DNA from: Candidatus Latescibacterota bacterium
GTDB taxonomy: Bacteria; Krumholzibacteriota; Krumholzibacteriia; WVZY01
NCBI GenBank assembly: GCA_011772205.1
Contig: WVZY01000008.1
Coordinates: 1-64,000, forward strand
Direction: 5' to 3'
Length of the DNA stretch: 64,000 nucleotides
The notes under the pieces were generated by a model, which made no database searches, was not told the origin of the DNA, and saw nothing but the letters and a program-made list of their open reading frames with translations. A program made the translations under genes and the position numbers. This document shows positions 5,421 to 62,897 of the stretch, one piece after another. How positions within the stretch are numbered: the first letter of the stretch is position 1; every line of letters begins with the position of its first letter.

Positions 5421-5774
5421 TTAATACGAATGCGTGCCCAAAATCACGTTGATGCCAAATTTGCTTTCAAGCGCAGCTTTGAGACTGTCAAAATCTATCG
5501 GACATTCAGCTGTTTCCATTGCTAGCTTCATGCATGTGCCAAAATGAAGTGTCTCTATCTCCCTGCCGAGATTCGTTGTGATCTCACTCAATAGTTTGAC
5601 TCTTGGAAATGTTAGCCCAGGGCAATCTCCACAATCGGTCATGGCTACCAACTCGATTTCTTCATGTTGAGCAAACTCCCCGTTTTTCTCCGCCATCCCC
5701 TTGTAGCATTTTGCACCAGCGATGCACGAATGGTCTTTAACGCTTTTGCAGTAAAGTATCGCAGCTTTTGACAT
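5421..5774 (-). CDS. CGGC domain protein
   Basis: A 117-residue cysteine-rich protein of the CGGC family: ILYCKSVKDHSCIAGAKCY near the start, VAMTDCGDCPGL in the middle and LHFGTCMKLAME later. The spaced cysteines suggest metal or iron-sulfur binding, which is family inference. The ATG at 5774 has GGCGGAG upstream; a longer in-frame start would add 14 residues. It lies between the cupin and the AhpD-like gene, both also possible redox or metal proteins, but nothing ties the three together beyond adjacency. Confidence 0.7.
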   Translation of the reverse strand: MSKAAILYCKSVKDHSCIAGAKCYKGMAEKNGEFAQHEEIELVAMTDCGDCPGLTFPRVKLLSEITTNLGREIETLHFGTCMKLAMETAECPIDFDSLKAALESKFGINVILGTHSY

Positions 5775-5916
5775 TGGCATCTCCGCCCACAAAAATGAGC
5801 CATGATATTGATCCATAAACGGCGTCCTACTTAAGGCAATAGATCACCTGCCGATCTGCATTAAACTCTTTTCGGAAATCGGGGCACTTTTATTTTATTC
5901 ATAACTCAATTGCAAT

Positions 5917-6282
5917 TTATTTTGTTCTACTATGTCGCTCAATTTCATCCAATTCTTCTAAAACTTTAAAGACAAACCGAGCAGGCCATTCTGCTACACA
6001 TCCACAAAGAAACAAAGCAACAGCAGTTGCTTCTACTATTTCCTTTCTTTCGGCTCCAAGGTCAACAGCACTGCTGACATGATACTCTATTCAACCATAG
6101 CATCCGTTGGCAATGCTTACTCCTAAAGCGATAAGCTCCTTGTGCTTTTGTTCAAGAGCTCCATCTTTAAATGCGTTCTCTTCGGCATTTGCTATTTCGC
6201 GAAAAGTATTGATGCCACTAAGGAACATCTTGGCATTATATTTTTTCCTAAACGCTCTGATTTCACTAATGTTATCGTACAT
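5917..6282 (-). CDS. AhpD-like protein with in-frame TGA; candidate selenoprotein
   Basis: A carboxymuconolactone decarboxylase/AhpD-like gene of 121 codons with one internal TGA at 6091-6093 (codon 64). Upstream the reading is KELIALGVSIANGCYG; downstream it continues in the same frame as IEYHVSSAVDLGAERKEIVE and VLEELDEIERHSRTK, then TAA. The family motif is CxxCxxxH; here it reads C-Y-G-(TGA)-I-E-Y-H, so the TGA sits exactly at the second, redox-active cysteine. A hairpin suited to a bacterial SECIS follows (6061-6078). TGA is used as an ordinary stop elsewhere in the window. Read-through with selenocysteine would give a full-length thiol-dependent peroxidase-type protein; otherwise this is a pseudogene with a Cys-to-stop change. 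GGGAGG precedes the ATG. Confidence 0.6.
6061..6078 (-). promoter_or_regulatory. Possible bacterial SECIS hairpin
   Basis: Minus strand GTCAGCAGTGCTGTTGAC folds into a 7-bp stem (one G-T wobble) with loop GTGC. It begins 12 nt after the in-frame TGA, so the loop is about 20 nt from the TGA, within the distance known for bacterial SECIS elements, which also favour a small loop with an early G or GU. It overlaps coding sequence, as bacterial SECIS elements do. Short palindromes also occur by chance. Confidence 0.45.
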
Positions 6283-6375
6283 AGTGCCTCCCTAGGTAAC
6301 GTACTGCCCCCGAATAACAAAACAAATATTAAATTCGTTTGCACTCCGCTTACTTCAATCGGCTGAACATTGGAG

Positions 6376-6915
6376 TCAAACTCCTCCGCTCAGATATTTC
6401 TCGCTCAAAACTTCCATGTGGTGCTTTTCATGCCCGGCTATGATGTAAGCGATCGAGCGGACTGTGAATCGACAATCGCTCGCGATACCGGTTCGGTCCA
6501 GAATAGTTTCGTCGAAGCTGTCGAACAGTAGTATGTTTGCGGATCTCAGGTGCTGAAGTTCCTGCATGAGATCCGACATCGCACGCGCAGAGAAATTTGC
6601 TCCAGACATGAACTCTTCCTGATCGACTCCCGGCAATGGCGGCGTTTTGCAGCGAGCGAAGCTCAAAGCTCGATAGCTGAAGACCCACTCCATGTCGATG
6701 ACATGCCCCACCACCTCTTTCAGTGTCCACTTCCCAGGCGCATACCGGTGGTCTACCTTTTCCTGCGGAACTCCTCGAAGCAGCTCGAGAGTTGTCTGGA
6801 GCTGCTCCCTCAAAATCGCCACAATGTCCCCCTCCGGCACCAGCTTCACGTATCTATCGTAGAACTCGAAGTATTCCTTTTTCTCTGGACGATGTCCGAT
6901 GAATTTGTTGGGCAT
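6376..6915 (-). CDS. DinB family protein
   Basis: A 179-residue four-helix DinB/YfiT-type protein. Helix features include GKWTLKEVVGHVIDMEWVFSYRAL, with a metal-ligand histidine, and the closing IAYIIAGHEKHHMEVL, with the conserved H-x3-H pair. Such proteins are putative metal-dependent thiol transferases or damage-induced proteins; the substrate is unknown. The ATG at 6915 has AAGGAGAGGA directly upstream. Confidence 0.83.
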   Translation of the reverse strand: MPNKFIGHRPEKKEYFEFYDRYVKLVPEGDIVAILREQLQTTLELLRGVPQEKVDHRYAPGKWTLKEVVGHVIDMEWVFSYRALSFARCKTPPLPGVDQEEFMSGANFSARAMSDLMQELQHLRSANILLFDSFDETILDRTGIASDCRFTVRSIAYIIAGHEKHHMEVLSEKYLSGGV

Positions 6916-8738: not shown

Positions 8739-8828
8739 CCTCAATGCCCCGGCGCTTATCCGGAGCCAGGATCCCGGTGTGTCAAAGCATCTCCAAACTC
8801 ATAAGACTGTCGGCTGCAGAAGTTTATC
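8739..8828. other. attC-like recombination site
   Basis: Degenerate left box cctcaat followed by GCCCCGGCGCTTATCCGGAGCC, matching by position the arm seen in better sites (GCC-CGGCGCTAAG). The right arm is GTCGGCTGCAG with a weak box gtttatc. Confidence 0.45.
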
Positions 8829-8844
8829 AGGCAGTTCGCTTGAA

Positions 8845-10323: not shown

Positions 10324-10527
10324 CTACGACTGCTCAGCCGACGCGCCCTTTATACGCTTCATCAATCCAACAATGTACTGGATCAATATAATCAAGGCTG
10401 CCAGCGCCCCGGCAAGAATTCCGACAGCCGGACTGAGATCCAGAGGCCAGATTACGCACCCGGCGTAAATCAGCCCGCTTCAAACTGCCATCCCGATCAG
10501 GGCTTTGAAAGCTCTTAGTAACTCCAA
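10324..10527 (-). pseudogene. Small membrane protein gene with in-frame TGA
   Basis: From a TTG start with AGGTGA seven bases upstream, the frame reads LLRAFKALIGMAV, then TGA at 10480-10482, then SGLIYAGCVIWPLDLSPAVG, ILAGALAALIILIQYIVGLM and KRIKGASAEQS to TAG. The two halves form one coherent two-helix membrane protein of 67 codons. The TGA probably replaces TGG (Trp) or another residue. No SECIS-type reason exists for read-through here, so it is read as a broken gene or a sequence error. Confidence 0.5.
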
Positions 10528-33410: not shown

Positions 33411-34526
33411 TTATTCTCCTCCAGTTGTCGTTCGTAGAATGGTGCCGAATGCTCCCACTACCGTCCCCGTATTCGCATCCGTGAACGAAACACCAAAAAG
33501 CGAATTATTCGTGCCACTCGTTTGACCAACCCAGGTATCCCCGCCGTCCGTCGTCCGGAGAATCGTACCCCCTTCTCCGACGATGGTGCCCGTGCTCGCA
33601 TTCACGAATGAAACATTGAGGAGCTCTCTACGTGTTCCGCTCGGGTGACTCACCCACGTATCCCCACCGTCCGCCGTCCGGAGAATCACACTCCTCCCAA
33701 CGGCAATCCCCACGCTCGCATTCGCGAATGCGACCGCGAAGAGATCGTCATTCGTAACGCTCGGCAGGCTCACCCACGTGGTTCCGCCATCTGTCGTCCG
33801 GAGCATCGTGCCCGAATTCCCCACCGCCAGCCCCGTATTCGCATCCGTAAAGAAAACATCCCAGAGAATTTCGGACGTGCCGCTCGTTTGGCCCACCCAG
33901 GTGGCCCCCCCATCCGTCGTCCGGAGAATGGTGCCGCCTTCCCCCACCGCCGTCCCCGTGTTCGCATCCGTGAACGATACAGCAAAGAGTAATTTGTTAG
34001 TGCCGCTTGTTTGCCTCTCCCAAGTGGCACCCCCATCCGTGGTCCGAAGAATCATGCCCGGACACCCCACAACCGTCCCAGTATCCGCGTCCGTGACTGC
34101 AACATCCGTAAGCCAGTACGTCGTTCCGCTGTTTTGCTTCACCCACGTGGCGCCGCCATCCGTGGTTCGAAGTATTATGCCGTGCATGCCAACGGCCACC
34201 CCATTGTTCCCATCAACGAACGAGACACCCGTAAGAGCTGTACCCTCACCGCTCGTTTGATTCACCCACGTGGCTCCTCCATCCACCGTCCGAAGAATCG
34301 CACCGATTTCCCCAACGACCACTCCGGTGTCGACATCCGTGAATGAGACATCCCAAAGCCCATTTCCCTGGGGCAACGGATTCTGCCAAATCCACCCAGA
34401 TGGGGATGATGGTGACGGCGATGACGGTTTGAGGGGATTACCGGAGCAAGCGAAGATCTGAAGAAAAAATGCAAGAACAGCCAGAATCTGGCATCTGCCC
34501 CACTTATTGCGTAGTGCTTCACACAT
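33411..34526 (-). CDS. Ycf48-like beta-propeller lipoprotein
   Basis: A 371-residue lipoprotein (LAVLAFFLQIFACSG with lipidated cysteine, then a proline/serine linker) made of eight near-identical units of about 41 residues, each with GTILRTTDGGATWV-QTSGT and TDANTGTAVG. This is the Ycf48/BNR propeller repeat. At DNA level it is a tandem repeat of about 123 bp. Likely a surface protein; binding partner unknown. GGGAGG precedes the ATG. Confidence 0.82.
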   Translation of the reverse strand: MCEALRNKWGRCQILAVLAFFLQIFACSGNPLKPSSPSPSSPSGWIWQNPLPQGNGLWDVSFTDVDTGVVVGEIGAILRTVDGGATWVNQTSGEGTALTGVSFVDGNNGVAVGMHGIILRTTDGGATWVKQNSGTTYWLTDVAVTDADTGTVVGCPGMILRTTDGGATWERQTSGTNKLLFAVSFTDANTGTAVGEGGTILRTTDGGATWVGQTSGTSEILWDVFFTDANTGLAVGNSGTMLRTTDGGTTWVSLPSVTNDDLFAVAFANASVGIAVGRSVILRTADGGDTWVSHPSGTRRELLNVSFVNASTGTIVGEGGTILRTTDGGDTWVGQTSGTNNSLFGVSFTDANTGTVVGAFGTILRTTTGGE

Positions 34527-37977: not shown

Positions 37978-38072
37978 ACATAACTTCCCTGCGCCGAGCT
38001 GCGGATGGAGGCGAATGCATTGCCCTACTAGCGCCGTGACAGGCGGCTTGCGGCTTCATTGGCGTGTTATAC
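37978..38072. other. attC-like recombination site, 95 bp
   Basis: Left box acataac at 37978, arm CTGCGCCGAGCTGCGG, right arm GCGGCTTCATTGGCGT and right box gttatac at 38066-38072. Confidence 0.65.
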
Positions 38073-38099
38073 GTTTAATAGAAACTTAATATATACGCG

Positions 38100-39857: not shown

Positions 39858-39957
39858 TGCTAACGACCCGGAACTCAGCCGCGCGTGGCGAAGCCGTCCA
39901 AGCGCTGCGCAGCTCAAAAGCACGCCACAGGCCGACAGCTGCATGCGCGTATTAGAC
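39858..39957. other. attC-like recombination site, 100 bp
   Basis: Left box tgctaac at 39858, arm GGAACTCAGCCGCGCG, inner repeat AGCGCTGCGCAGCTC, right arm GACAGCTGCATGCGC and right box attagac at 39951-39957. Confidence 0.6.
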
Positions 39958-39965
39958 GAATCATT

Positions 39966-42377: not shown

Positions 42378-42405
42378 CGATCCTCCGGGCTTTTTTACTT
42401 CCAGG

Positions 42406-42480
42406 CGCTAACATGCCGGCGGATGACGCGAACCTCGCCTCGCAAGGGACATAGCGCCCAGCTGTAGCTTCAGAAGCATT
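42406..42480. other. attC-like recombination site
   Basis: Left box cgctaac at 42406, arm GCCGGCGGATGACGCG, central CTCGCAAGGGACATAGCG (like the centre of the 46439 and 61350 sites) and right arm CCAGCTGTAGCTTC. Right box unclear. Confidence 0.45.
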
Positions 42481-42504
42481 TTGATCGCTCCTCGAATTCC
42501 AACA

Positions 42505-46438: not shown

Positions 46439-46520
46439 GCATAGCGTTCCGGCGCAAAGCTGCGGGAGGGCGTTCCTTGCCCCGCAAGGGACGTGATAGC
46501 CGACCGTAAGCCTCAGCATG
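46439..46520. other. attC-like recombination site
   Basis: Left box gcatagc, arm GGCGCAAAGCTGCGGG, central TTGCCCCGCAAGGGACG hairpin and right arm TAAGCCTCAGCATG with degenerate box gtcagcc overlapping the next stop. Confidence 0.5.
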
Positions 46521-47195
46521 TCAGCCGGCACTCAAGCGTGATCTTGAGATGTTTTGCCCACGCTTCAGTGTCTGCAGAAGAACAATACCGGGGCCTGCCA
46601 GCCGCGTCATGAAGAATCCCTCTTTTCCGAACAAAGTCTTTCTCAGGGCTCCGACACGTTGAACATCGTAACCCACGGTTTTCGCGAAGGCAGCAAGATT
46701 GCCCGTACTTACGATAATTTCCTCCCCTTCCCTTAGCTCTTCCCTCTGGAAATCTCCACGGCCATGAATCAAGACGGTACCGCTTCCCTCTACACGCTGG
46801 AGTACCAGGCCGGCACCGCCGAACAGGGCAGCTCCTGCCCTGCGGGCCACGGCGATCGAAATCTCGATGTTGGAACCCCACGCTGCGAGAAACGCGCCCC
46901 GGGTTGTGAGAACGGGACCCTCATCAGCCAGATCCCAGCTAGCGATATGTCCAGGTTCGTTCGCACCTAGTGTAACTCGTTGCTCATCGCTCGTGGCCAC
47001 TATTCTCGCCAGAGCGACTCCTTCCCCTGAGAAGACGCGCTTTACGGCTGCTGAGATCCCGCCGGGCACTCTCACGTCCCACTCAAGACCAGACGAATAA
47101 GACACTATGGAGCCCTTCGATGCCCAGAGGCTCTCGTCCTTCTGCAGGCTGAGCTGCGCGGTTTGCGCCACTGTCCCGTGGATTCTGACGTCCAT
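46521..47195 (-). CDS. AIM24 family protein (TIGR00266-like)
   Basis: A protein of about 224 residues of the AIM24 fold: VRIHGTVAQTAQLSLQKDES, ASKGSIVSYSSGLEWDVRVP, GAFLAAWGSNIEISIAVARR, GAGLVLQRVEGSGTVLIHGR, LREGEEIIVSTGNLAAFAKT and FMTRLAGPGIVLLQTL. The double beta-barrel is tryptophan RNA-binding-like; function unknown in bacteria. Start at 47195 is the first methionine of the domain; an upstream in-frame ATG would add 18 residues. Confidence 0.82.
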   Translation of the reverse strand: MDVRIHGTVAQTAQLSLQKDESLWASKGSIVSYSSGLEWDVRVPGGISAAVKRVFSGEGVALARIVATSDEQRVTLGANEPGHIASWDLADEGPVLTTRGAFLAAWGSNIEISIAVARRAGAALFGGAGLVLQRVEGSGTVLIHGRGDFQREELREGEEIIVSTGNLAAFAKTVGYDVQRVGALRKTLFGKEGFFMTRLAGPGIVLLQTLKRGQNISRSRLSAG

Positions 47196-52864: not shown

Positions 52865-52966
52865 ACATAACAGCATGGCGCGAAGCTGCGCGCCGGGCCA
52901 GGCGCGATGGATGCGTTGCAGCCGTTGCGACAGGCCGGAATATCAGCTCGAGCAGGCTTGTTAAGT
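52865..52966. other. attC-like recombination site, 102 bp
   Basis: Left box acataac at 52865, arm GGCGCGAAGCTGCGCGCC (itself a strong stem), right arm CAGCTCGAGCAGGCTT and right box gttaagt at 52960-52966. Confidence 0.7.
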
Positions 52967-52980
52967 GGGCGGTGCCAATC

Positions 52981-54496: not shown

Positions 54497-54584
54497 GTCT
54501 AGTACCTTGACACTAAGCTGCGCCCTGGTGGCGTATCCCTGGCCGCGAGTCGGAGCTCGCAGCCGGGCCGTCTGCTTGTTACGG
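54497..54584. other. attC-like recombination site
   Basis: Left box gtctagt (degenerate), arm ACACTAAGCTGCGCCC, right arm GCTCGCAGCCGGGCCGTCTGC and right box gttacgg at 54578-54584. Confidence 0.55.
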
Positions 54585-54629
54585 CGGAGGTTTCACAGGA
54601 CGGTTTCTTAACTGGATGCGCATATTAGT

Positions 54630-55491: not shown

Positions 55492-55583
55492 GCTCAACGC
55501 CTCGGCGCTAAGCTGCGGGCAACACGACTATTACCCCCCAAGCGGCGTAACACGCGATCGCCAGCATCAGCGGGAGGTCAGAG
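55492..55583. other. attC-like recombination site, 92 bp
   Basis: Perfect left box gctcaac at 55492-55498, arm GCCTCGGCGCTAAGCTGCGGGC, right arm GCCAGCATCAGCGGGAG and degenerate right box gtcagag. Confidence 0.65.
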
Positions 55584-55591
55584 GGCTATCC

Positions 55592-55801: not shown

Positions 55802-55869
55802 GTCTAACGAATACGCAAAGCTGCAGGCGCCGTCACATAGAAGCCAGCAGCTTCAGAGGCATGTTGGAT
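55802..55869. other. attC-like recombination site, 68 bp (clearest)
   Basis: Both boxes are perfect: left gtctaac (RYYYAAC) at 55802-55808 and right gttggat (GTTRRRY) at 55863-55869. Arms ATACGCAAAGCTGCAGGC and CAGCAGCTTCAGAGGCAT fold on each other. Confidence 0.8.
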
Positions 55870-55892
55870 TATCATTATTTATAAAGTCTCTT

Positions 55893-57604: not shown

Positions 57605-57685
57605 CGCTAACCCGCCTTGCCTATTTCGTGCGCTCACTCCACCCGGCGTCGGAGCAGCGCTGCCGGCTGCAGCGGCAAGTCATAC
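57605..57685. other. attC-like recombination site, 81 bp
   Basis: Left box cgctaac, then CCGCCTTGCC; right arm CCGGCTGCAGCGGCAA and degenerate right box gtcatac at 57679-57685. The right half is alike to the site at 58306. Confidence 0.55.
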
Positions 57686-57760
57686 GATCGACTCCAAAAC
57701 CTCACCCATACAAGCGCGCTCAATACCCTTTTCTCGAAGTGTTGGTACTCTGCTACTACC
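57686..57760 (-). pseudogene. Relic of an outer-membrane protein C-terminus
   Basis: The minus-strand frame FEKRVLSALVWVRFWS parallels FEKRGLTSLAGVKF-stop of the fragment at 58402, with TGA changed to TGG. About 75 bp of DNA are alike, directly beside the matching attC halves. The rest of the gap up to 57889 shows no gene. Confidence 0.45.
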
Positions 57761-58305: not shown

Positions 58306-58393
58306 GCCTAGCGCAAAGGGAATCAGCCGCGGGCCTTGCCAAAACTCGATGCCCCAAAGGCCGTGGCCCATCGGCTGCAACGTCAAGTTATAC
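58306..58393. other. attC-like recombination site, 88 bp
   Basis: Left box gcctagc, arms AATCAGCCGCGGGCC and GGCCGTGGCCCATCGGCTGC, and right box gttatac at 58387-58393. Confidence 0.6.
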
Positions 58394-58401
58394 CATCGAC
58401 T

Positions 58402-58605
58402 TCAAAACTTCACCCCTGCAAGGGAGGTCAGTCCCCTCTTCTCGAAGTCAAGCCCGGCAACATTGGTCGGATCGGTGAAATCCATGTCGAATGGCACTTC
58501 GGTTATAAAGGAGACATTGGCCGCTCTCCGAACCTCCAATCCCAATCCGATGCTCCCTCCCAGCACCGCGATCGAGTAATCGTCGGGAATTCGGCTCGCC
58601 AGCAA
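58402..58605 (-). pseudogene. Outer-membrane beta-barrel C-terminal fragment
   Basis: Only the end of a barrel protein: SIAVLGGSIGLGLEVRRAAN, VSFITEVPFDMDFTDP and FEKRGLTSLAGVKF-stop, closing with the terminal phenylalanine and alternating pattern that BAM recognises. No signal peptide and no upstream part, so it is a truncated gene. Confidence 0.55.
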
Positions 58606-60601: not shown

Positions 60602-60715
60602 AGCTAACGGCATGGTGCTGAGCTGCGCAGCCAACATGGCGTCGCACTCGGCACTGAGCACTAAGACGCTCGTCAGCTTCAGCCGCGTGACAGGTGGCTG
60701 ACAATGTAGATCGGA
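60602..60715. other. attC-like recombination site
   Basis: Left box agctaac at 60602, arm GGTGCTGAGCTGCGCAGCC, right arm CGTCAGCTTCAGCCGCGTGAC. Right box not clear before the next stop. Confidence 0.5.
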
Positions 60716-61349: not shown

Positions 61350-61450
61350 TCGGACGGCCTGCGGCATGCCCCTAAGCTGCGCTTGGAAGATGCGTCCCTT
61401 GGCTTGCAGGGAACGTAATAGCTGTCCATCAGCTTCTTGGCGTGTTATGC
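61350..61450. other. attC-like recombination site
   Basis: Degenerate left box, then CCCCTAAGCTGCGCTTGG, centre CCCTTGGCTTGCAGGGAACG hairpin, right arm CATCAGCTTCTTGGCGT and right box gttatgc at 61444-61450. Confidence 0.65.
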
Positions 61451-61462
61451 TCGCCAAATATC

Positions 61463-62789: not shown

Positions 62790-62891
62790 GTCTTACGCCC
62801 CCGTGCTAAGCTGCGAGCCGATCCTGTCGAGCCGGCTGCCCTACAGCCAGCGTGATAGGTTGGAGCCATCATCTTTAGCGGCTTGTCGGGC
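62790..62891. other. attC-like recombination site, 102 bp
   Basis: Left box gtcttac, arm GCCCCCGTGCTAAGCTGCGAGCC, right arm TTAGCGGCTT and right box gtcgggc at 62885-62891. An inner gttggag at 62859 is an alternative right box. Confidence 0.6.
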
Positions 62892-62897
62892 AATGTC

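Follow-up and report, generated by a model that had tools for sequence, protein, structure and literature searches.

This locus raises two questions: whether the in-frame TGA at a catalytic position of an AhpD-like gene is read as selenocysteine (Sec, U), and whether the gene has travelled as a mobile cassette. We analysed a stretch of 64,000 nucleotides, which as a whole is called the window here. The gene lies on the minus strand and reads ATG ... TGC TAT GGT TGA ATA GAG TAT CAT ... TAA from 6282 to 5917. It contains a single in-frame TGA (6093-6091, codon 64) that occupies the second redox position of a CxxUxxxH motif. The features of the gene are as follows.

5917-6282, minus strand: predicted selenoprotein gene of CMD/AhpD-like type; 121 codons, of which codon 64 is U, and the stop TAA
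6091-6093, minus strand: putative Sec codon TGA (U64), the second redox position of CxxU, assigned from the sequence and the orthologues
6079-6102, minus strand: catalytic motif C61-Y-G-U64-I-E-Y-H68, with E49 upstream, in the AhpD proton-relay pattern
6061-6078, minus strand: putative bSECIS hairpin GTCAGCA-GUGC-UGUUGAC, 7-bp stem and 4-nt loop, with codon freeze
6287-6293, minus strand: Shine-Dalgarno-like AGGGAGG, about 5 nt 5' of the ATG, assigned from the sequence

When the product was read through the TGA, residues 29-104 matched PF02627 (CMD) with 62.1 bits (cut-off 23). Since this match spans the TGA, the frame 3' of the stop is homologous family sequence rather than chance, and the redox Cys position is an in-frame TGA with homology on both sides. 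The first-pass annotation had placed the TGA at the second Cys of a CxxCxxxH motif and had let family sequence continue past it to the TAA at 5917, and our results agreed on both points. With a mechanical ORF caller this gene comes out at 63 aa, and standard gene callers would likewise cut it to 63 residues. A Cys-rich CGGC-domain protein is encoded directly 3' of the gene (5421-5816, minus strand) and is not kept beside the orthologues.

Close relatives were then sought in 84,980 species genomes, in a scan which used Cys-containing peptide patterns among others and does not count U forms fairly. Three were found, all deltaproteobacterial. Two of them (L040, 71% identity; L041, 74%) have TGA at the Sec codon of the window gene, and the third, more distant one (L042, 59%) has TGT, encoding Cys. 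A six-frame search reading through stops was carried out in 389 genomes of the Desulfobacterota class of L040. Orthologues with 55-75% identity were detected in 12 of these genomes (L040 and L041 counted among the 12), and all 12 carry one TGA at the same codon. Homologues with U and with Cys, which the first-pass annotation had suggested looking for, both exist, and its proviso that close homologues might all have Cys was contradicted by the twelve TGA genes.

The hairpin GTCAGCA-GTGC-TGTTGAC (6078-6061) begins 12 nt 3' of the TGA. Its loop has 4 nt with G as the first base, and the UGA-to-loop distance is 19 nt. The bSECIS model in the excerpted text of a published source (PMC13188914) has a loop of 3-9 nt, a stem of 4-16 bp, a G within the first two loop positions and a spacing of 16-37 nt, and the window hairpin agrees with the model as given there. 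Both the 7-bp hairpin with loop GTGC and its fit to the position of bacterial SECIS elements, as originally described, were thus reproduced. In one sequence alone, the hairpin is weak evidence and its stability is not exceptional: a stem of at least 7 bp in the bSECIS position arose in 3.8% of random synonymous-codon versions of the gene, and 32% of such versions folded as stably as the window hairpin. For this reason hairpin energy in the single gene was dropped as evidence.

The significance of the hairpin comes instead from its exact conservation across genomes. In the 13 TGA genes (the window gene included), there are 40 columns with an unchanging amino acid that more than one codon can encode, and only +5 to +8 among them use a single codon in 13 of 13 genes. 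These four consecutive codons, GTC AGC AGT GCT, encode most of the hairpin, and two of them are for serine, which has six possible codons each time. Over the TGA genes the hairpin has the form GTCAGCA-GTGC-TG[T/C]TG.., and in L042, the gene with Cys, the protein motif is retained but the hairpin is absent. We take this as a bacterial SECIS element under RNA-level selection for Sec insertion. With 4 of 40 codons frozen, the gene offers a clean case of such selection.

One might argue from the single MAG contig, the existence of Cys forms (L042) and a hairpin that in one sequence is not strongly non-random that the TGA results from faulty sequencing or assembly, or that an ordinary Cys gene has recently become a pseudogene by nonsense mutation. 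However, the TGA stands at the same codon in 12 of 12 orthologues from separate genomes, the hairpin codons are frozen synonymously, and the frame is intact with conserved residues 3' of the TGA, which makes this explanation highly improbable. Still less credible is a real stop with a 63-residue N-terminal peptide as the functional product, which has the ORF caller's length in its favour. Such a stop would split the catalytic motif, conservation does not drop from the N-terminal part to H68 and the C-terminal helices, there is a full-length Cys homologue, and the host has Sec machinery. The conserved TGA in the orthologues and the frozen hairpin codons led us to reject the error, pseudogene and true-stop explanations. 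The gene is therefore almost certainly a functional bacterial selenoprotein gene, and we infer that Sec is inserted at codon 64.

Such a gene would depend on SelA, SelB, SelC and SelD in the host, as had been pointed out before, and the absence of sel genes would have spoken against it. All four were present in the host genome (4.13 Mb, 96.5% complete): a tRNA-Sec with anticodon TCA (72.6 bits), selA (474 bits), selB (384 bits) and selD (405 bits). The host also carries a second selD (L020, G000:C3:42923-43846) with an in-frame TGA at the catalytic position (RLTKYATCAG*ASK), and a Cys-SelD (HGLGCACK, on C25) exists alongside this Sec-SelD. As this TGA is located where SelD has its redox Cys or Sec, the host very probably encodes two or more selenoproteins. 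In the phylum of the window, selA was detected in 78 of 80 genomes.

A fold model built from 11 homologues was all helical (pLDDT 88.7) and matched the solved CMD/AhpD structures 1p8c, 5dik and 1vke, which were also found by sequence profiles. The proton relay of M. tuberculosis AhpD consists of Glu118, Cys130, His132, Cys133 and His137 (PMC3141380). Four of these five residues correspond to E49, C61, U64 and H68 of the window protein with the same spacing (E118/C130/C133/H137), whereas the fifth (His132) is Gly63 and the second Cys is replaced by Sec. The window protein also differs from M. tuberculosis AhpD in being a single short domain. The score for TIGR00777 (AhpD proper) was 21.2 bits against a cut-off of 191.95, and by its sequence the protein is classed as AhpD-like rather than AhpD proper. 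The best NCBIfam match was the AhpD domain of NF041537 (55.3 bits, cut-off 510), the ArsM_AhpD_UU arsenite methyltransferase/AhpD domain selenoprotein; the AhpD domains align, but the window protein is a stand-alone domain without the methyltransferase. The GSU3128 family (NF041047, the 'distant AhpD homologue' of Geobacter; 32.4 bits, cut-off 110) is likewise a small AhpD-like (seleno)protein with CxxU, but a family separate from the window protein. Judged by these scores, the protein does not fully belong to any (seleno)protein family named in NCBIfam.

We propose the following mechanism. SelB carrying Sec-tRNA(Sec) would bind the bSECIS hairpin 12-30 nt 3' of the UGA, and the ribosome would then read UGA codon 64 as selenocysteine. 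The product would be a small all-helical CMD/AhpD-like protein with the redox site C61-x-x-U64-x-x-x-H68 and E49. By analogy with AhpD, U64 is most likely the reactive residue in place of Cys133, and its selenol may reduce peroxide or disulfide. The product is thus most likely a selenol/thiol peroxidase or a disulfide-reducing adaptor, its activity and partners being predicted from this analogy. The gene was probably acquired by a host from a phylum in which selenoproteins were already being made, and it now stands in a CALIN-like, integron-type array.

The surroundings of the gene bear on the second question. In 1-64000 there are 64 ORFs on the minus strand versus 9 on the plus strand, and the plus ones are mostly overlapping or spurious; practically every genuine gene lies on the minus strand. 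The encoded functions include DinB, CGGC, cupin, GNAT, SDR, SnoaL, methylguanine methyltransferase, creatininase and hydrolase; these genes are of cassette-typical kinds with variable G+C. Ordinary plus-strand genes start at about 64.5 kb (L043), and the array ends where the attC-like sites end. These sites were located with a home-made covariance model built on seven hand-picked intergenic seeds, in which a first automatic consensus structure (3 pairs only) had been replaced by an R''/R', L''/L' structure. Four more strong sites were found beyond the seeds, giving at least 11 sites at 38-63 kb, all on the minus strand:

1-64000, minus strand: CALIN-like array, about 60-70 small genes in one orientation with unrelated functions
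8739-8833, minus strand: possible decayed attC, the nearest to the AhpD gene (13.9 bits, E 0.055 in 18.5 kb; weak)
37978-38073, minus strand: attC-like site, 76.9 bits, seed
39858-39958, minus strand: attC-like site, not a seed
42395-42487, minus strand: attC-like site, not a seed
46439-46527, minus strand: attC-like site, seed
52865-52967, minus strand: attC-like site, seed
54497-54585, minus strand: attC-like site, seed
55492-55584, minus strand: attC-like site, not a seed
55802-55870, minus strand: attC-like site, seed
60602-60696, minus strand: attC-like site, seed
61357-61451, minus strand: attC-like site, seed
62790-62892, minus strand: attC-like site, not a seed

The consensus ends are GCCTAAC...GTTAGGC, the canonical attC core. 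As a control, 140 kb of the host genome was scanned with the model and contained no site. The covariation of the pairs was no greater than in shuffles, and the family is for this reason defined by sequence and position. A strict attC scan of RYYYAAC...GTTRRRY with folding gave one spurious match only, an ungapped repeat search and an all-against-all BLAST of intergenic DNA revealed no common repeat, and the Rfam search of the window had no match. An integron integrase was also sought and none scored above the family cut-off; the best candidates, on C77, scored as XerD/XerC and were rejected. With attC-like sites and no integrase over the cut-off, the region is classed on sequence features as CALIN-like. 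It resembles a CALIN (an attC cluster without an integron integrase) in the co-oriented array, the attC-like sites and the lack of a detected integrase, and is unlike one in that the array end with the selenoprotein gene shows no recognisable attC.

Genomes of the window's own family also carry attC-like sites. In one of them (G003:C1), paired attC-like sites about 0.6-1.3 kb apart (for example 1166322-1166420 and 1166895-1166993) occur in several parts of the chromosome and resemble dispersed mini-arrays. Within the window, an intergenic repeat of 77 nt is present at 57664-57740 and at 58372-58448, 708 bases apart and with 82% identity. It overlaps weak matches of the attC model and may represent the same cassette end in duplicate. 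A protein encoded at 33418-34526 has at least 7 repeats of 123 nt (about 41 residues each) that are 62-82% alike. A 67-codon hydrophobic ORF (10527-10324, minus strand) contains an in-frame TGA at 10482 (LELLRAFKALIGMAV*SGLIYAGCVIWPLDLS...) with a strong hairpin 3' of it, lacks both a Pfam match and a redox motif, and may be a pseudogene.

The first-pass annotation regarded the selenoprotein gene as a mobile cassette. This idea is supported for the region, with its one-strand array and attC-like sites, but did not carry over to the gene itself: with filters off, no attC match above 2.3 bits was detected in 5700-6500, and no attC-like site was observed in the 1.5-4 kb examined beside the orthologues. 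The gene may instead be a selenoprotein gene of ordinary chromosomal kind, otherwise acquired, that stands in a strand-biased region outside any integron-type array. The bare flanks of the gene and its orthologues, the integrase result and the 32-57 kb that separate the gene from the strong attC-like sites, with nearer ones being weak remnants, all favour this explanation, to which we give slightly under an even chance. Against it are the small, unrelated genes of cassette type with variable G+C, which share one orientation over about 64 kb, the stop of the array where the attC-like sites stop, and the weak remnant at 8739-8833 near the gene.

Cassette status is therefore no more than plausible from the sequence context. 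That the gene entered the genome as an integron cassette, and that SECIS-bearing selenoprotein genes travel singly and work only in Sec-decoding hosts, is a tentative proposal which we consider rather doubtful. If true, a recoded gene would be shareable through integrons with its recoding signal inside the coding sequence, and its spread would be limited only by the Sec trait of the recipient. Our literature search returned no report of selenoprotein genes moving as integron cassettes, and its matches were incidental.

The origin of the gene was judged from its distribution. Only 1 of 80 genomes of the window's phylum has the gene (E<=1e-25), which is its own genome, versus the scattered occurrence in the Desulfobacterota class; other CMD proteins in the phylum carry CxxC, with identities of about 37% at most. 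This distribution indicates that the gene was probably acquired horizontally, with Desulfobacterota-like bacteria as the presumed source. As the tree leaves the branching point of the window gene unresolved, it is the distribution that suggests the direction of transfer. Viral contigs and phage records contained no relatives, plasmid records contained only distant ones (<60% identity), and the neighbourhoods of the orthologues had no conserved gene in common with the window that would point to a partner or substrate. Since selA is nearly universal in the phylum, the Sec trait was already present and nothing but the gene had to arrive; the gene, not the Sec machinery, looks like the newcomer. 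The conserved UGA, its Cys counterpart, the RNA-level constraint, the Sec machinery, the fold family and the array with attC-like sites were all established at the sequence level.

Selenoproteins of this type are not new. AhpD-like and CMD-domain selenoproteins were listed in the Sargasso Sea set in 2005 (PMC1088965), AhpD-like 1 and 2 selenoproteins in GOS in 2008 (PMC2398784), and a CMD-like PF02627 CxxU selenoprotein (MBW1767730.1) in a 2026 review (PMC13188914), as far as the excerpted texts of these sources go. By these excerpts, CxxU CMD/AhpD-like selenoproteins have been known since 2005, and the first-pass annotation had mentioned them from marine metagenomes. The CMD-domain/AhpD-like 2 selenoprotein of the excerpts and the window protein have PF02627, CxxU and Sec insertion by bSECIS in common, whereas those excerpts name neither the window's phylum nor an integron-like array as a setting. 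The window gene adds a well-supported CMD/AhpD-like selenoprotein to a phylum whose genomes can almost all make Sec, and is unusual mainly as a lone, probably horizontally acquired gene in an integron-like array of unrelated genes.
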